Virus record (IMG/VR): IMGVR_UViG_3300006919_000498
Span: 1 to 22,682 of that record
From: a virus
Length of the DNA stretch: 22,682 bases
Strand: one strand, 5' to 3'
Shown: one piece after another, positions 13,908-22,106 of the stretch
How positions within the stretch are numbered: the first letter of the stretch is position 1
How the letters are laid out: each line of letters begins with the position of its first letter
Position numbers and translations under genes: made by a program
The notes under the pieces: generated by a model
What the model was told of the DNA's origin: nothing
The model's input: only the letters and a program-made list of their open reading frames with translations
The model's database searches: none

Positions 13908-14756
13908 GTGATTATATTAGATTACAACCAAGTAGCCCTCGCCAATCTAATGGTCAGCGGCCCTAAAAATGTCAATGCGAACGAAGATCTACTACGTCAC
14001 ATGATCCTCAATTCTATTCGCATGAATAAAGTCAAGTTTGAGAAAGAGTTCGGCGAGTTAGTCATCGCATGCGACGCTACGTCTAACTGGCGCAAACAGT
14101 TCTTCCCCTATTATAAGGCGAATCGCAAGAAGAATAGACAAGATTCTGGTCTCGACTGGAACGAAATCTTTCGTATTCTCAATGCAGTACGCGATGAACT
14201 TGCAGAATTCTTTCCCTATCCCACCGTCCGAGTTGAGCATGCCGAAGCCGATGATGTCATTGCGACCCTTTGTCATGAACACGGACGCCAACTCGGCGGT
14301 GACCCTATCCTCATCTTGTCAGGCGACAAAGACTTCCAACAACTACAGCGTTACTCAAATGTTTCGCAGTATGATCCTACTCGTAAGAAGTGGATTAAGT
14401 GTAATAATCCTGAAGATTTCTTGCAAGAACACATTCTTAAAGGTGATACAGGTGATGGTATTCCAAATGTGCTCAGTTCTGATGATACATTTGTAGCAAA
14501 TGCACGACAGAAGCCATTACGATCGAAAAAAATGGAAGAACTGAAGATGCTACATTTTTGGGATTGGGCTGAAGATGTGAACAAAAATTATCAGCGTAAT
14601 CGTATGCTTATTGATCTAAATGCTGTACCTGATAGAATACGCACAGCAACAAAGAAAGCAGTAGAAGAACAAGAAGGTAAAGGACGAGATAAACTCTTCA
14701 ATTACTTTATCAAATACAAACTCAAAAACCTAACCGAATGCATATCTGAATTTTAA
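13908..14756 (+). CDS. RNase H / 5'-3' flap exonuclease, T4 Rnh type
   Basis: The product has 282 residues (T4 RNase H has 305). It removes RNA primers and flaps during lagging-strand replication. Acidic metal ligands of the FEN/PIN-like fold are visible: D5 (IILDYNQ), D56 (VIACDATSNWRKQFFP), E113/D115/D116 (EHAEADDVIA), D140 and D142 (LSGDKDFQQL), and D180/D183 in GDTGDGIPN, which begins the helix-hairpin region. The KANRKKNR stretch is the usual basic arch segment. The start is GTG, supported by GGAG seven bases upstream. It pairs functionally with the gp61-like primase encoded upstream. Confidence 0.92.
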   Translation: MIILDYNQVALANLMVSGPKNVNANEDLLRHMILNSIRMNKVKFEKEFGELVIACDATSNWRKQFFPYYKANRKKNRQDSGLDWNEIFRILNAVRDELAEFFPYPTVRVEHAEADDVIATLCHEHGRQLGGDPILILSGDKDFQQLQRYSNVSQYDPTRKKWIKCNNPEDFLQEHILKGDTGDGIPNVLSSDDTFVANARQKPLRSKKMEELKMLHFWDWAEDVNKNYQRNRMLIDLNAVPDRIRTATKKAVEEQEGKGRDKLFNYFIKYKLKNLTECISEF

Positions 14757-15316
14757 TGAAAAAGACATTCGTAGTTTTTCCAGTAATTATAAACAAATTT
14801 AAACATCATGAAGAGTTAAAAGAAAAATTACTTACAGCAATCAACGAACAAAAAGAATTTAAACCTCTTATAGTTCATGATCAAAATATAGCAAGATGTG
14901 ATTGGGATACATCTCGTTTTGATAGAGAACGTGAATGGTATAAAATTTTAGATGAACCACTACATGAACATTTAAAAGAGTGGTGTACACATTTAAAGTA
15001 TGAGTATTTCGAAATACATGAAATATGGTTTCAACAATATACTACTGGTGGTAAACACTCATGGCATACACACGGAGATAATTTTACGAATGTATATTAC
15101 CTCGACTTACCACAAGACAGTTCACAGACTGAATGGATAGGACCAGTGACGCGCAAAATACATAAATTTGATGTAGCTGAAGGAGACATCATTACTTTTC
15201 CAAGTTGGCTAATACATCGCGGCCCTATAAATTTATCAAGCAAAATGAAAACTATCATATCATGGAATTTGGAAGTTACAATAAGTGATCTATACGGAGA
15301 GAATAATGGCAGTTAA
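14756..15316 (+). CDS. 2OG-Fe(II) oxygenase-like protein (putative, PF13759-like)
   Basis: This gene encodes 186 residues, joined to RNase H by TAATG. A double-stranded beta-helix oxygenase pattern is visible: WFQQYTTGGKHSWHTHGDN with H106-G-D108 as the HxD iron motif, NVYYLDLPQ, then EGDIITFPSWLIHRGP with the distal His H154, and a basic residue near K165 that could bind 2-oxoglutarate. The substrate is unknown. The gene is visibly A/T-richer than its neighbours. It is one of two such enzymes in this window, and the two are not obviously alike outside the core motifs. Confidence 0.82.
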   Translation: MKKTFVVFPVIINKFKHHEELKEKLLTAINEQKEFKPLIVHDQNIARCDWDTSRFDREREWYKILDEPLHEHLKEWCTHLKYEYFEIHEIWFQQYTTGGKHSWHTHGDNFTNVYYLDLPQDSSQTEWIGPVTRKIHKFDVAEGDIITFPSWLIHRGPINLSSKMKTIISWNLEVTISDLYGENNGS

Positions 15317-16913: not shown

Positions 16914-17565
16914 ATTATTTGAACCTAAACCCCTAAAACGAATCAACGAGGACGGCCAAAGGCTGTACGTTACTGAAAGCGGAGAAAAATATCCATCAGT
17001 AACGTCAGCCCTTGGTGCATTATCGAGGAAGAAGATATGGGAATGGCGAAAACGTGTGGGCGCGGAAACTGCCAACAAGATCTCAACACAGGCATCTCGC
17101 GCAGGTACTGCAGTGCACCAGGTTGCCGAGGACTATATTCTTGGGCAGATGAAAGAAGACGTGAATCCGATCGCACTAAACACCTTCAAAACTATCCAAC
17201 CTTATCTGGACGAACACGTTGACGAGATCTATGGTGTCGAATTACAAATGTATTCCGATGAACTCAAGACTGCTGGTACGTCCGATCTGATCTGCCGTTA
17301 TGCAGGTCAAAATACAATCTTAGACTTCAAAACATCTAAACGCTGGAAACCAAAAGACGAGATTCATTCGTACTTTATGCAAGGTGCTGCGTATGCTACA
17401 ATGGTGAAAGAACACTATGATATGGATATTGAACGTATCGTAATTCTCATGGCAGTTGGTGGTGGAGAAGGTGCAATTGTATTTAATGAACCACTCGAAG
17501 ATTGGCAACCAATGACTCGTAAATTCTTTGATCTATATCATAAAGGCAAACTAAAGGACTTCTAA
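16882..17565 (+). CDS. PD-(D/E)XK nuclease, RecB/Cas4-like exonuclease
   Basis: It encodes 227 residues with a TTG start, supported by AAGGAG seven bases upstream. The RecB-type nuclease motif series is complete: H79 (AGTAVHQVAED), E120 in GVELQMYSD, D135 in GTSDLI, D148-F-K150 in ILDFKTSKRW, and Q167-x3-Y171 in YFMQGAAYA. Such enzymes cut or trim single- or double-stranded DNA ends; in phages they can serve recombination or host DNA degradation. No iron-sulfur cysteine set is present, unlike typical Cas4. The gene overlaps phoH by 32 bases and joins the next gene by TAATG. Confidence 0.9.
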   Translation: MQEKNSGFALKLFEPKPLKRINEDGQRLYVTESGEKYPSVTSALGALSRKKIWEWRKRVGAETANKISTQASRAGTAVHQVAEDYILGQMKEDVNPIALNTFKTIQPYLDEHVDEIYGVELQMYSDELKTAGTSDLICRYAGQNTILDFKTSKRWKPKDEIHSYFMQGAAYATMVKEHYDMDIERIVILMAVGGGEGAIVFNEPLEDWQPMTRKFFDLYHKGKLKDF

Positions 17566-18233
17566 TGCATCCGAGTAAATGGGCTTTGTCGAGAAATTTC
17601 TTGACCGAAGATCAATGTGATGAAATCATTGAATTAGCCGAGAGAATGAAAAGGCAACGCGGTTCTCTTCATGACTACGAAAATAGTGTGCACAAAGATT
17701 CACGATTATGCGATGTTATTTGGTTTACCGAACATAATGCAGAAAAAGCTGGCGTTGTAGATGAGGTAGGAAGAATATATCAAATTGTTGATCAACAATT
17801 TAATGGTGTCAAACAAATCATGAAACTAGATCATTGGATAATCGATGATCGCGAAAATTTTCAATATACAGAATACACAAAGAAAGGCGAATGGTATGAT
17901 TGGCATATTGACTGTCATCGAGAACCATATCCTGAATTAGATGAGAATGGTAATCCGCATCGATGGGCAGGAAAGGTACGGAAAATGAGTATGAGTATTT
18001 TCCTCAATGATCCATCAGAATGGACGGGTGGTTATTTTGAAATAGAAAATACATACGATAGACCACCATCAGAACCATATATGAGAGTCAATCGTTATGG
18101 TCCAGGGATTGTAGATTGTAAAAAAGGAAATGCAATTATTTTCTCTTCAGATTGTTATCATCGAGTATCTAAGTTAGAAACTGGCAATCGTAAATCATTA
18201 GTCTGCTGGTTTGTTGGTCCACCCTTTGTTTAA
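17565..18233 (+). CDS. 2OG-Fe(II) oxygenase, prolyl-4-hydroxylase type
   Basis: The product has 222 residues. The iron site reads H114-I-D116 (EWYDWHIDCH), with distal H199 (SSDCYHRVSKLETGNRKSL) and R209 or K210 as the 2-oxoglutarate anchor. The beta-helix core is visible in SMSIFLNDPSEWTGGYFEIE and IVDCKKGNAIIF. This matches the P4H-like family common in marine T4-like phages, where substrates are unknown (protein hydroxylation and nucleic-acid modification have both been suggested). It is the final plus-strand gene; its TAA forms part of the hairpin shared with the opposing operon. Confidence 0.9.
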   Translation: MHPSKWALSRNFLTEDQCDEIIELAERMKRQRGSLHDYENSVHKDSRLCDVIWFTEHNAEKAGVVDEVGRIYQIVDQQFNGVKQIMKLDHWIIDDRENFQYTEYTKKGEWYDWHIDCHREPYPELDENGNPHRWAGKVRKMSMSIFLNDPSEWTGGYFEIENTYDRPPSEPYMRVNRYGPGIVDCKKGNAIIFSSDCYHRVSKLETGNRKSLVCWFVGPPFV

Positions 18234-18260
18234 TTGGATTAAGCGATCTAATCCAATTAA
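18230..18260. terminator. Bidirectional palindromic terminator between converging operons
   Basis: Bases 18230-18241 and 18249-18260 form a perfect 12-base-pair stem with a 7-base loop (AGCGATC). The stop codon of the plus gene and that of the minus gene both lie inside the stem, at mirrored positions. The stem has few G-C pairs and no long T tract, so efficiency may be modest. Confidence 0.6.
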
Positions 18261-18733
18261 TTATTCAGCGGATTATCAAGTATAATCTGAATCTTCTCTT
18301 CGAGATCTTTTCTCGTCTGACGTAAATCTGCATCGAGCGTTCTCATCCGCTCGTTTACTTTAGACTCAATATTATATACATCATCACGCAGCTCGCGTTG
18401 TGTAGTATTTGTCTGATCGTCTACACGTCTAGCAAGGGCCTCGACTTTATCCATATCTTCGGTTAGTCTATCTTCTGCTAACTCAAGCTTCTTCTCAAGC
18501 TGCTCTATCGTAGCGAGGAGCGACGCCATTGACTCTGATTGTACTGCTAACTCTTGCTCTATGTGTGACATGTCAGGCGCCACGTACTCCTCGATCTGCG
18601 CCTTCATATTACGATAGTCATTGTAAAATTCAAATGCACCCCATGCACCACCGCCGAGAGTGGATAATGCAGTAAGAATCATAAACATCTTACCGCCTTT
18701 GAATGTCATGCCAGCAAATTCAAATTCTGCCAT
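18257..18733 (-). CDS. Membrane-anchored coiled-coil protein
   Basis: It encodes 158 residues. One hydrophobic span at about 15-37 (KMFMILTALSTLGGGAWGAF) follows a short N-terminus. Residues 50-150 are a long heptad-rich, highly charged coiled coil (SLLATIEQLEKKLELAEDRL and onward), probably facing the periplasm. The shape recalls an inner-membrane spanin, but no embedded or adjacent outer-membrane lipoprotein partner is evident, so that label is not given. It is the last gene of the minus-strand set, and its stop lies in the terminator stem. AGAAGG nine bases before the ATG is a plausible ribosome site. Confidence 0.8.
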   Translation of the reverse strand: MAEFEFAGMTFKGGKMFMILTALSTLGGGAWGAFEFYNDYRNMKAQIEEYVAPDMSHIEQELAVQSESMASLLATIEQLEKKLELAEDRLTEDMDKVEALARRVDDQTNTTQRELRDDVYNIESKVNERMRTLDADLRQTRKDLEEKIQIILDNPLNN

Positions 18734-18818
18734 CTTTCTTTGCCTTCTCTGCTAGTTTTCTGTCTGTAGTCCTAATGATGATGTAACCTTTATTATCATA
18801 GATCGTATACATTCTCAT
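18720..18818 (-). CDS. 32-residue small protein in the envelope cassette
   Basis: This is a short gene whose ATG overlaps the TGA of the preceding minus-strand gene (ATGA) and whose end overlaps the next start by 14 bases, so it exactly bridges the gap. The product begins MRMYTIYDNKGYIIIRTTDR and continues with a basic helix (KLAEKAKKDGRI). It has no export signal. The coupling geometry is the main support. The function is unknown. Confidence 0.55.
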   Translation of the reverse strand: MRMYTIYDNKGYIIIRTTDRKLAEKAKKDGRI

Positions 18819-19279
18819 GATAGTATACTCACAAAGCCGGCAATTAATACGGCACAAAATACAAAGAAGCCGGCGACGGCTACTGCATCAATATAAAATG
18901 CTTTTTTACGTGCAGCTGCTTGTGCTGCTTCAATTCTACGTTGACGAATGGCTCGTCTTTCTTTCATCATATCTTCGTAAAATTGTTGTTGTCCAGTATA
19001 AAGCAAAAATTCGTATAGTTCCTTTTCTAATTGCTTTATCTTATGTCGTGCTGCGGTGACCTGTAGTGCTTGTGCTTCTACACTGCTTCCACCAAATAAC
19101 GATCCCACCATAGATGGGTTTTTAGCGTGTTGATCTGCTTCTGCTAGTGTTTCTTTCGCATCAAAGAATTTTGCAAAAACATCGTACATATCCTGGACCT
19201 CTTGGCCCTTCTCAATCGCTCCTTTAATCATATTGAAAGCAGAACCAGCCATCGACAACGCGGCGGCTATTTCTACCAT
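18815..19279 (-). CDS. Tail-anchored membrane protein conserved in marine T4-like phages
   Basis: It encodes 154 residues. The N-terminus is an amphipathic helix (EIAAALSMAGSAFNMIKGAI). A middle region SLFGGSSVEAQALQ leads into a long basic helix (KERRAIRQRRIEAAQAAARK), and one span at about 129-153 (FYIDAVAVAGFFVFCAVLIA) ends at the C-terminus. The basic stretch just before the span predicts a cytoplasmic N-domain. I recall proteins of this plan (ALSxAGSAFN opening, RQRR helix, C-terminal span) in cyanophages, unnamed. AAGGA nine bases upstream supports the start. It may couple cytoplasmic events to the exported proteins encoded before it. Confidence 0.82.
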   Translation of the reverse strand: MVEIAAALSMAGSAFNMIKGAIEKGQEVQDMYDVFAKFFDAKETLAEADQHAKNPSMVGSLFGGSSVEAQALQVTAARHKIKQLEKELYEFLLYTGQQQFYEDMMKERRAIRQRRIEAAQAAARKKAFYIDAVAVAGFFVFCAVLIAGFVSILS

Positions 19280-19284
19280 TATGA

Positions 19285-19746
19285 TTATTCCTTATCTGTA
19301 TTACCTGCCATTACGCTTGGTGCCGTCGGAGCCTCAAACTGCAAGTTCCGAAGGTTTTGTATCTCGCGTTGTAACTTCAGTACTTCGAGTCGTTTCTTTT
19401 CTAACTCGAGTTTATATAATACATTACAATTGAGTCTTTCTTTTGGTGCACCGATAGGAATCGTAATTCTACCGTACACACCAATATCTCTCATAAAATC
19501 ATCATTATTAAAATTGTATGTTGGATCATATCCACCATAAAACGGATCATTTTGATTTAATATACCTACTACACCAAATTCTACGTTAGTTGATGAACCA
19601 ATCGCAGCTGAACACTCTAAATCACCTGCTCGTATTCTGTCAGATTGAAAACTCTGAGGTGATTGAGGTATCGCGATATTAATGCCATTCGATTGTGCAT
19701 AAGCAAAACACGGTAGCAATAATATCAATGTCAATAATTTTTTCAT
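19285..19746 (-). CDS. Exported protein with signal peptide, beta-rich plus coiled coil
   Basis: The product has 153 residues. The signal peptide is classic: MKKLLTLILLLPCFAYA, cleaved before Q18. The mature part holds two cysteines (C45 and C107), which could form a disulfide, and beta-like strands (CSAAIGSSTNVEFGVVGI; DIGVYGRITIPIGAPKERLN). A charged helix at 108-136 (YKLELEKKRLEVLKLQREIQ) probably mediates oligomerisation. I recall the GVYGRITIPIGAP block from other marine phage proteins. Periplasm or outer membrane are the likely locations. It is coupled to the upstream gene by ATGA. The function is unknown. Confidence 0.82.
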   Translation of the reverse strand: MKKLLTLILLLPCFAYAQSNGINIAIPQSPQSFQSDRIRAGDLECSAAIGSSTNVEFGVVGILNQNDPFYGGYDPTYNFNNDDFMRDIGVYGRITIPIGAPKERLNCNVLYKLELEKKRLEVLKLQREIQNLRNLQFEAPTAPSVMAGNTDKE

Positions 19747-20114
19747 TTTACTTTAGAACATATCCTAGAGGAAACCAAACTCGCAGACTTGTTTTGTTTC
19801 ACATGTAACGAACGTGAACAGATATACCTTGCTCTTGGTAGATCTGCCTTTCTTATGTATATATTTATCTTCTTGCGTTCAAGATATTCGACAGGAACAT
19901 TACGCTCTTCTGCCGCCCACGGCACATGTATAAACTCATCATCAAAAACTTCAAACGTATAATATGCTACATCGCCACGAGAATTCCATAGCTCCATCTC
20001 AGCAACGTATATACCTTCGACATATGATTGTTTGAGTTTAGGATAGGTGGGAGTCCATGAATGGGCCGCAACGGGCCCACTCAGGACTAATAACAGGCAC
20101 ATAATATAGCGCAT
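19743..20114 (-). CDS. Exported protein, possible periplasmic chaperone-like (PapD-type) domain
   Basis: It encodes 123 residues. The signal peptide MRYIMCLLLVLSGPVAA is cleaved before H18. The mature sequence looks all-beta: IYVAEMELWNSRGDVAYYTF, then VPVEYLERKKINIYIRKADL and RARYICSRSL. The order (paired-strand NSRGxxxYY-FEVFDD block, then a basic strand with KKINIYIRKADLP) recalls the N-terminal domain of fimbrial chaperones, including the G1-strand region and the DLPxxR segment. Cysteines C99 and C119 could pair. Only one Ig-like domain fits, whereas PapD chaperones have two and about 230 residues, so the link is tentative. The downstream gene overlaps by four bases. No ribosome site is evident, so it depends on coupling. 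Confidence 0.78.
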   Translation of the reverse strand: MRYIMCLLLVLSGPVAAHSWTPTYPKLKQSYVEGIYVAEMELWNSRGDVAYYTFEVFDDEFIHVPWAAEERNVPVEYLERKKINIYIRKADLPRARYICSRSLHVKQNKSASLVSSRICSKVK

Positions 20115-20116
20115 GT

Positions 20117-20614
20117 TTAGAGTGCTATACAGTTAGCCTGAACAATCGCAGTGTATGTACCACCGGGAAGTGCTTTGCTAACGCCATAATCAGCTTCTGA
20201 ACTCACCTTAAACCAAGTTGAACCGGTATAATCGAGATCGATTTCGGTTGTCGAATCATATTCTATCTTGCTAGTATCGTATGCTGACATTTGAGCATCA
20301 GAGACAGCTTCTACAGCAGTAGAACCAGTCCATGAGATAGTATCAGTGAGTGCAGGACTTTGTGAGAATGAAGAAGGATGAGTAATAACAGCCTTATACG
20401 CACTAGCGATTACTACGTCGTAACGAACGACGGGTTCAACACCTCCATCTGCCGCATCAGTGCTAAGTACACTAGCTGTAGGGTTACCATAAACACCTTG
20501 CTTATCGAGAGTTACTACACATTTTGATTCGACATTGCCCACGATAGGAGCATCAAGTGCTTGTGCACTCATTGCAGTTACCGCGATTGCTGCTGCCAAA
20601 ATTTTCTTGAACAT
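20117..20614 (-). CDS. Exported Ig-like, possible pilin-like subunit or surface protein
   Basis: The product has 165 residues. The signal peptide MFKKILAAAIAVTAMSAQA is cleaved before L20. The mature chain is Ser/Thr/Asp-rich and beta-like, with one cysteine near each end (C32 in VESKCVVTLD and C162 in IVQANCIAL), suggesting a disulfide that staples the first and last strands, as in several secreted beta-sandwich subunits. The C-terminal GGTYTAIVQANC alternates hydrophobic residues. A chaperone-like gene lies directly downstream. AAGGAG seven bases before the ATG (20622-20627) is a strong ribosome site, so this may be the most highly made product of the set. A pilin-like role is inference. 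Confidence 0.82.
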   Translation of the reverse strand: MFKKILAAAIAVTAMSAQALDAPIVGNVESKCVVTLDKQGVYGNPTASVLSTDAADGGVEPVVRYDVVIASAYKAVITHPSSFSQSPALTDTISWTGSTAVEAVSDAQMSAYDTSKIEYDSTTEIDLDYTGSTWFKVSSEADYGVSKALPGGTYTAIVQANCIAL

Positions 20615-21495
20615 TAACGTTCTCCTTTGTATTGTGATTTGACTAATTTATCATGAAGTAAGTCTTGTGCAAACTGTAGTCTGCGTCCCCGATTATTTTT
20701 AGGCAACGCAGCATCTTTGAGTTGAATTGTTTCATTATAAACAGTGTCAGGTAATTGCTCGTAATATTGGTTAGAAAAGTTGGCTAGTGCCATCATTTGT
20801 TTTTGCTTCGCAGTATCTTGAGCATTCTGTAACGATCTATTCGCTATACCTAAAACTGTCTCAAGATCAACCTCTTCTTCATCGTCTTCTTCTTCAGACA
20901 TCCTTTGTCGCTCACGTTCTTCTTCATCTTCATCACGCATAGTCATCTCTCTATCGATCTCGTCTTGCACAAACGTATCGTCGAGCGGATCTACAACTTC
21001 AACTGATGGTATATCAGGTATTTCTACCTTATAACCAGGACATGATGGATCCGATTGTGGATCAAAACATGTATCATATTGATAAGTATAAATCACTGAT
21101 GGGTCAGTCACTTTACCGTCACCTTCCCATGTTATTTCTCCATCTCCCCAATAATCTATAGGAATTCCACCAACACCGATTACTTTGAAGATAGAGTTAC
21201 CAGGCAATCCAGTCCAGTCATCGGTTTCTCGAAAGATATATCCACCGTCGACCGCGTTTTCGTTTTGTATTGTGACAAGTAAAGGATCTTCAGGATTCTT
21301 GACTGTCGTATATCGATACAAAACTGTATTGACTTGCAAACCTGCCTGTTGAGGCAGAAGATTACTCATCACCCAATTATATCCATTCTGAGCTGCATTG
21401 GTCGTTTGACCAAATACTTGTTCAGAGTAAGAGTAAGAGGGCAAGCAAGCCAGCGAGACCGCCACCAGCAATTGCTGTATTCTTCGTATTGTCAT
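20614..21495 (-). CDS. Exported acidic protein with CxDPxxDPSCPGY motif
   Basis: It encodes 293 residues. The signal peptide MTIRRIQQLLVAVSLACLPS extends to about S24; a lipobox around C17 is a poor match. The first half is beta-rich (VNTVLYRYTTVKNPEDPLLV, SIFKVIGVGGIPIDYWGDGE) and ends in C143-F-D-P-Q-S-D-P-S-C152-PGY, a motif I recall from other marine phage secreted proteins. A very acidic linker follows (170-210), then a helical tail. GAGGG at 21501-21505, five bases before the ATG, fixes the start even though it gives a 74-base overlap with the upstream gene. The next gene joins by TAATG. The function is unknown. Confidence 0.83.
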   Translation of the reverse strand: MTIRRIQQLLVAVSLACLPSYSYSEQVFGQTTNAAQNGYNWVMSNLLPQQAGLQVNTVLYRYTTVKNPEDPLLVTIQNENAVDGGYIFRETDDWTGLPGNSIFKVIGVGGIPIDYWGDGEITWEGDGKVTDPSVIYTYQYDTCFDPQSDPSCPGYKVEIPDIPSVEVVDPLDDTFVQDEIDREMTMRDEDEEERERQRMSEEEDDEEEVDLETVLGIANRSLQNAQDTAKQKQMMALANFSNQYYEQLPDTVYNETIQLKDAALPKNNRGRRLQFAQDLLHDKLVKSQYKGER

Positions 21496-22030
21496 CTATT
21501 CCCTCATCTTTTTTTTCGCCAGGTTCTACTGTCTTGCCTTCGGCAAGCCACGCAGCTTTGGCTTCAGGACCGATGAGTCCGTCATACGGACATGGTGTAC
21601 CAGCATTCATCATTGCATCGAATACTCTTTCATCAGTACACATGAGTGACACTGCGGCCACTTTCATACCCATATCGTATAGAGTTTTGGCATTCTTCAG
21701 TCGTTCACAGTTTTCATCAGTAAATTGCGTACCTGTAGAAATACCGAGAATTTGTGTCTGAACTGCTCCAGCCACACCAAACGTACAAAGATCAGAGTTC
21801 GATGTATTAATAGTCGGCGTAATCGCTGACGCTGGGGGTGACTTCAATGTCGTAGTAGTACTTCCGTTTGTTGTAATTGTGCTTGTAGTCGTCGATTCAG
21901 TTCTTATCAGATTGGGATCAATCGCCTCTTCTTCTTGAGCAAGTACGAAAGCTGGTAACCATAAGAAAGCACCAATGACTAAAACACAAATGAGGGTAAT
22001 CCTCACTATGCTTGAGTCTAATTTATCCAT
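21422..22030 (-). CDS. Exported Thr-rich protein with conserved cysteine domain and hydrophobic C-terminus
   Basis: This is the first gene of the minus-strand set (202 residues). The N-terminal hydrophobic segment ITLICVLVIGAFLWLPAFVLA could be a signal peptide cleaved before Q32 or an anchor. A Thr/Ser-rich linker (44-62) leads to a conserved domain with four cysteines (C82, C108, C131, C147), including LCTFGVAGAVQTQILG, NCERLKNAKTLYDMGMKVAA and GTPCPYDG. I recall this domain in many phages, never with a function. The last 20 residues (AIAGGGLAGLLALLLLL) are a hydrophobic span with a Gly triplet but no basic tail, probably a membrane anchor. Two disulfides are plausible. Confidence 0.83.
   Translation of the reverse strand: MDKLDSSIVRITLICVLVIGAFLWLPAFVLAQEEEAIDPNLIRTESTTTSTITTNGSTTTTLKSPPASAITPTINTSNSDLCTFGVAGAVQTQILGISTGTQFTDENCERLKNAKTLYDMGMKVAAVSLMCTDERVFDAMMNAGTPCPYDGLIGPEAKAAWLAEGKTVEPGEKKDEGIDDNTKNTAIAGGGLAGLLALLLLL
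21501..21505 (-). promoter_or_regulatory. Ribosome site placing the 20614-21495 start inside the upstream gene
   Basis: On the minus strand, GAGGG is followed after five bases by the ATG at 21495-21493. This supports a start well inside the preceding coding region rather than a later one. Confidence 0.65.
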
Positions 22031-22061
22031 TGTTGTTTTACCTATAAAATATTAAATCATC

Positions 22062-22090
22062 TGTATAGGCATAATGTGAGGGTGGCTCAA
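22062..22090 (-). promoter_or_regulatory. Sigma70-like promoter for the envelope cassette (weaker candidate)
   Basis: On the minus strand, TTGAGC (22090-22085), 17 bases and TATACA (22067-22062) precede the ATG at 22030 by about 30 bases. It matches the sigma70 consensus at 4/6 and 5/6 positions or so and could give earlier expression in addition to the late octamer just upstream. Confidence 0.4.
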
Positions 22091-22098
22091 CCACGGTT

Positions 22099-22106
22099 TA
22101 TTTATA
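22099..22106 (-). promoter_or_regulatory. T4-type late promoter octamer for the envelope cassette
   Basis: The minus strand reads TATAAATA, a perfect match to the T4 late promoter consensus, in non-coding DNA about 69 bases before the first ATG of the minus-strand operon. This is the best late-promoter candidate in the window and implies expression with the virion genes, using a gp55-like sigma factor encoded elsewhere. Confidence 0.65.

Follow-up and report, generated by a model that had tools for sequence, protein, structure and literature searches.

The window analysed here is the virus record IMGVR_UViG_3300006919_000498, a stretch of 22,682 bases in which T4-like genes are present. Its minus strand carries a cassette of eight open reading frames (18257-22030), labelled g1 to g8 in the order of transcription (22030 to 18257). 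As a reading of the sequence alone (the sequence-only reading) had proposed, the cassette is a module that is conserved, made late, directed to the envelope, and lacking a named function; gene order, a late promoter octamer, signal peptides, and scans against Pfam and PHROG all bear this out. No system with such a set of genes was found described in the open-access PMC literature; any newness concerns the module, not a mechanism. What the module does is discussed below, where an accessory role at release is tentatively favored.

The eight genes overlap or are separated by short gaps and oppose the neighboring genes, which lie on the plus strand. The features of the cassette are as follows.

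22099..22106, minus strand: late promoter octamer of T4 type, TATAAATA, upstream of g1.
21422..22030, minus strand: g1, 202 amino acids, with a signal peptide or anchor, a Thr-rich linker, a conserved Cys domain, and a hydrophobic C-terminal tail (sequence, alignment).
20614..21495, minus strand: g2, 293 amino acids, with a signal peptide, a predicted beta (jelly-roll-like) domain at residues 26-141, an acidic region, and C-terminal helices (AlphaFold2, alignment).
20117..20614, minus strand: g3, 165 amino acids, secreted, with a single conserved Cys pair (C32/C162); pilin-like by eye only (alignment).
19743..20114, minus strand: g4, 123 amino acids, secreted, with one predicted PapD-type (Ig-like) domain and conserved C99 and C119 (AlphaFold2, Foldseek, VIA-align, alignment).
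19285..19746, minus strand: g5, 153 amino acids, secreted, with a Cys pair (C45/C107) and a C-terminal helix (alignment).
18815..19279, minus strand: g6, 154 amino acids, with a single C-terminal membrane span; an optional member, present in 53 loci only.
18720..18818, minus strand: g7, 32 amino acids, basic; optional, traveling with g6 (42 loci).
18257..18733, minus strand: g8, 158 amino acids, with a short N-terminal segment, a weak span, a coiled coil, and an invariant C-terminal Asn-Pro-Leu (alignment).
18230..18260, no strand assigned: perfect 12-bp inverted repeat at the convergent ends of g8 and the plus-strand gene 17565-18233.

The four clear signal peptides of the sequence-only reading are the N-terminal ones of g2 to g5, and the anchor and hydrophobic tail ascribed to the first gene lie at residues 13-31 and 184-202 of g1. 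Two single-span membrane proteins had also been counted. One is g6, with a span at residues 132-150, whereas the weak span of g8 falls under the hydropathy cut-off of 1.6 used to call spans. The 32-residue protein is g7. No protein of the cassette gave a Pfam match above noise, and the PHROG scan returned neither a named function above noise nor a structural family. Clear matches to g1 and g5 come from unnamed PHROGs only, and the PHROG matches of g8 are coiled-coil noise. PDB and Pfam profile searches with g1 to g5 gave chance-level matches only, and a lipobox scan found none in any of the eight proteins. By these scans neither an endolysin nor a holin nor a lipoprotein spanin is part of the cassette, just as first noticed; a T4-type lysozyme is encoded elsewhere in carriers.

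Scans of IMG/VR found g2 at more than 180 loci, g1 at 394, and g3 at 29 close loci. For the count of gene order, iterated profiles were run on the loci that had been fetched, some of which share a contig. The genes g1-g2-g3-g4-g5-g8 occur in the same order and on one strand in 137 of the 137 loci that have all six. This order is kept at g2 identities down to ~41%, with the flanking genes changing, and g8 was detected in all 18 carrier genomes tested. The six core genes show no independent scattering, which had been named beforehand as evidence to the contrary; the optional members g6 and g7 are confined to the clade of the window and some others. Because the core is ordered in every one of these loci and g7 recurs in 42, the gene set is far beyond chance. 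A dereplicated set of 60 loci combined 54 g2 sequences with identities below 75% and six phage records. Core genes are present in 49-59 of the 60, and the next most frequent neighbor families in 19 and 13, so the core is a unit with changing surroundings. The search of bacterial genomes for g2 gave a single match, a 6-kb contig (L178, 6.3 kb) in a Bacteroidetes metagenome-assembled genome that is probably a mis-binned phage fragment.

The perfect T4 late octamer reported upstream of g1 is at chance level when the window is taken alone (2 found, 2.1 expected). Its recurrence in relatives is what sustains it: of 50 dereplicated relatives, 23 have TATAAATA upstream of g1, where ~2.5 would be expected, mostly 27-46 nucleotides before the gene. 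The hairpin terminator fared less well. The AT-rich 12-bp stem is perfect, but no T-run follows it on the strand of the cassette. The convergent gene shares this stem, which shows no conservation among relatives. At the start of the cassette, g1 and g2 overlap by 62-149 nucleotides among relatives. The hydrophobic g1 tail is encoded inside this overlap with the g2 signal peptide and may therefore be partly its by-product; among six relatives without the overlap, the tail is found in HTVC115P only. In the window the overlap is 74 nucleotides (21422-21495), with the g1 tail and the g2 signal peptide in different frames, an arrangement conserved in 53 relatives.

Homologues of several members in other marine T4-like phages, without function, had been mentioned in the sequence-only reading and were found. 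The distribution of g1 and g8 reaches beyond T4-like phages. Homologues of g1 are present in the cultured SAR11 phages HTVC023P, HTVC115P, HTVC202P, HTVC033P, Baldr, and Mosig, in the Roseobacter phages CRP-207 and CRP-810, in the T7-like Votkovvirus S28C10, and in spring-water phages, with more distant ones in Achromobacter N4-like phages. Most such phages encode, shortly downstream of g1, a homologue of g8 that ends in the same invariant Asn-Pro-Leu. A core of g1, a secreted middle protein, and g8 is found in Mosig, HTVC023P, HTVC115P, HTVC033P, HTVC202P, and Baldr, and g1 with g8 also in CRP-207, CRP-810, ctXG6705, and ct7L0027. The middle protein of the SAR11 phages and S28C10 is secreted and has a carbohydrate-binding-like N-terminus and an acidic tail, a layout like that of g2. 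The core of g1, middle protein, and g8 is older and wider than the T4-like phages. Two proteins labelled lysozyme in GenBank, CRP-207 gp73 (L172:3292-3873) and CRP-810 gp51 (L174:6219-6641), are yet g8 homologues with a span, a coiled coil, and the Asn-Pro-Leu end; they show no sign of a lysozyme.

A canonical holin-endolysin set often adjoins the core in other lineages, whereas the cassette itself is without its enzymes or holins. Mosig has a holin of gene transfer agent (GTA) type (PF11351) upstream of the core, HTVC023P a Peptidase_M15 downstream, HTVC033P an Amidase_2 and a holin-like gene upstream, and ctXG6705 a Mosig-type holin and a lysozyme downstream. A GTA holin and/or a GH19-type enzyme follows g8 in the IMG/VR loci L060, L068, and L073, and in further loci a T4-type lysozyme adjoins g1 or g8. 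Six Votkovvirus-type contigs, one of which begins inside g1, carry the order (holin-like), g1, middle protein, g8-like, terminase large subunit. The order in T7 is holin, terminase small subunit, spanins, terminase large subunit. The core in T7-like genomes thus occupies the slot of the T7 spanins.

A further link of the cassette to lysis, an indirect one, is a family of proteins of ~105 amino acids (alignment A7) that combine a single EF-hand loop with two spans; it belongs to no named family and shuttles between the spanin locus and the cassette. Its members lie near spanin, holin, or endolysin genes (L016:13294-13620; 117101-117430 of G001, which is the closest near-complete relative of the window; L184:4483-4800; L172:3870-4223). 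The protein directly precedes the spanin pair in G001 and L068, precedes a spanin and an endolysin in CRP-345, adjoins GTA-type holins in CRP-810 and L060, and begins 0-15 nucleotides after g8 in several lineages. In HTVC008M and Melnitz it sits between baseplate and tape-measure genes. The T4 holin T was searched for in carriers and was not found. The EF-hand protein is probably a holin or its partner, and the family is a candidate calcium-responsive holin or antiholin.

The sequence-only reading had left a choice among a surface appendage, envelope remodeling, a superinfection block, and an aid to release. The gene neighborhood beside lysis genes favors the last. The strict gene order, the conserved late octamer, and a weak match of the g8 profile to the Melnitz i-spanin also count for it. 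On this reading, tentative and at somewhat less than even odds, the cassette is an accessory, late, periplasm-crossing envelope module that acts at release beside lysis. For complex formation, localization, and function, we infer the following. The g8 protein would sit in the inner membrane with its coiled coil reaching into the periplasm. The g1 and g2 proteins would be exported by Sec, would bind at the periplasmic or outer-membrane side, and together with g8 would form an envelope-crossing assembly. T4-like phages would add beta-rich periplasmic subunits, namely g3, g4, and g5, with the PapD-type g4 serving g3 as a chaperone or strand donor. At release, the assembly would help to breach the envelope or to remodel it. 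It would act beside the canonical holin, endolysin, and spanin set in T4-like phages and might replace the spanins in some SAR11 and T7-like phages.

Several observations weigh against a role at release. The lysis genes of the window clade lie tens of kb away: G001 has its lysozyme at 25.4 kb and its candidate holin and spanins at 117-118 kb (i-spanin at 117,441, o-spanin at 117,802), with the cassette at ~70-74 kb. Adjacency to lysis genes is therefore not general in T4-like phages. A lysozyme lies within 9 kb of the cassette in 13 of the 60 loci, which is near the chance expectation for genomes of 150 kb. A full spanin pair coexists with the cassette, so no essential lysis step is vacant in these T4-like carriers. 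Homology between g2 and the middle protein of SAR11 phages could not be demonstrated: by hhalign the two show no significant similarity, the one borderline exception being a C-terminal match to HTVC115P gp53.

The fold of g4 bears on two further readings. Its AlphaFold2 model is a single PapD-type domain with a predicted local distance difference test score of 92.5. Searched with Foldseek and VIA-align, the model matches FimC, Caf1M, SafB, and DraB at Z 10.6-10.8 over ~100 residues (Z 10.8 to FimC and Caf1M) and CsuC at Z 9.6. In predicted fold, g4 is thus closest to the N-terminal domain of pilus chaperones. Because of this chaperone-type fold, a periplasmic or surface assembly is plausible. 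One doubtful form of it is an usher-free phage assembly, in which the single-domain g4 would handle the secreted beta subunit g3, building a periplasm-crossing structure on the coiled-coil anchor of g8. This would be a late module distinct from the holin, endolysin, and spanin, and would help to open the Gram-negative envelope.

An unlikely alternative, marginally behind this one, is a phage-encoded periplasmic or surface fiber, with g3 as a pilin-like subunit, g4 as its chaperone, and g1, g2, g5, and g8 as anchor or export proteins; infected cells would become stickier or altered at their surface. Besides the matches of the g4 model, the invariant cysteines C99 and C119 point this way, lying on the last two strands of the model. 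Caf1M-type chaperones likewise have cysteines on the last two strands. The succession of a secreted beta-type protein, g3, and then g4 mirrors the pilin-then-chaperone order of SCPU operons. The likeness to chaperone-usher pili such as those of FimC, Caf1M, and CsuC has limits, however. The g4 protein ends after the first chaperone domain (123 amino acids) and has no second one, gives no match to pilus chaperones by sequence, and resembles MSP domains as well (Z 9.2). The usher family PF00577 was found in none of 19 carrier records, some of them fragments, with an Escherichia coli control positive. The profile comparison of g3 with SCPU pilins by hhalign reached a probability of 17%, which is not significant, so that g3 is not established as a pilin. 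The SAR11 and T7-like cores are also without g3 to g5. The N-terminal domain of g2, modelled by AlphaFold2, is a generic beta sandwich whose best fold match is weak (Z 8.9).

The curli (type VIII secretion) genes of pelagimyophages (PMC7029224, PMC9599517, PMC9004378) are likewise multi-gene envelope modules of marine phages and lend the fiber a precedent; for the CsgGF pore of Melnitz, a role in lysis has been proposed (PMC9004378). The cassette as a curli or type VIII secretion system was ruled out, as g1 to g8 include no CsgG- or CsgF-like protein by Pfam. HTVC008M and Melnitz have no g1 homologue.

About as improbable as the fiber is a device for superinfection exclusion or lysis inhibition, in which late envelope proteins would sense or block incoming phages. 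Late expression, as read from the conserved octamer, the envelope targeting of the products, and an accessory distribution next to a complete lysis set are consistent with it. Known exclusion proteins tend to be encoded by one or two small genes, and a strictly ordered six-gene core by lysis genes would be atypical.

The core as a spanin substitute, with g8 as the i-spanin and g1 and g2 as its outer-membrane partner, is quite improbable. The g8 protein shares the i-spanin architecture of the two-component spanins (lambda Rz/Rz1, T7 gp18.5/18.7; PHROG 739, 812), namely a short N-terminal segment, a weak span, and a periplasmic coiled coil. A weak match links the g8 profile to the Melnitz i-spanin (E 2e-5), and a second one links g8 to PHROG 312. 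The core fills the spanin slot in T7-like phages, and a spanin is present in CRP-345, which lacks g8. Among records that carry the core, eleven from SAR11, Roseobacter, T7-like, and spring-water phages matched neither the PHROG 812 o-spanin nor the i-spanin profile. Searches of part of these with PHROG 312 (Rz) and PHROG 1804 found none, except a weak Rz match that is the g8 of ctXG6705 itself. The cassette differs from spanins in having no outer-membrane lipoprotein and in comprising three to six proteins. Moreover, a lipobox scan of the near-complete relatives G001 and G002 led to the o-spanin family PHROG 812 and an overlapping i-spanin of PHROG 739. Such a separate overlapping pair is present in 9 of 12 long cassette-carrying T4-type contigs, including both relatives. 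With this pair present, the cassette is not the spanin set of these carriers, and the substitute reading fails for the window clade. Substitution is possible, judging by these profiles, only in SAR11 and T7-like phages.

Two observations touch on spanins in other phages. In the T7-like marine phages L185 and L187-L192, the slot that T7 uses for its spanins is taken by a secreted triad, a possible spanin substitute, and S28C10 has no spanin of the PHROG 812 or A10 type. In HTVC008M (117049-117779; L180/L218), i- and o-spanin matches are broken by stop codons, through sequencing error or decay.

Virion components or DNA-ejection proteins are highly improbable: a late promoter, a tail-fiber gene upstream in some loci, and the weak resemblance of the g2 beta domain to baseplate and tail domains fit them, but nearly all members have a signal peptide or membrane anchor and none matches a structural PHROG.

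Other genes were noted in the window and its relatives. In the window, 14756-15316 encodes a putative 2-oxoglutarate-Fe(II) oxygenase (PF13759), and the plus-strand gene 17565-18233, convergent with the cassette, has no Pfam match and resembles a PF13759 oxygenase by eye. G001 contains an envelope cluster at 39944-40718 (L202:944-1718) of a chained membrane protein, a Cys-containing lipoprotein of 63 amino acids, and a multi-span protein. A recurrent phage lipoprotein family with the motif (S/K)-(F/Y)-Y-D-(D/N)-N-E lies a few kb from the cassette (L115:17248-17622; L124:17260-17625; L021:15115; G002 36122-36496).

A block that is kept intact across hundreds of marine phage contigs while its neighbors change is under selection for some activity. 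If the module acts at release, the lysis of Gram-negative cells would have an additional, unrecognized component in abundant ocean phages. Should it form a structure on the surface, this appendage would be made by the phage and would employ the PapD-type chaperone fold. Because cultured SAR11 and Roseobacter phages carry the core triad, the question can be tested now.

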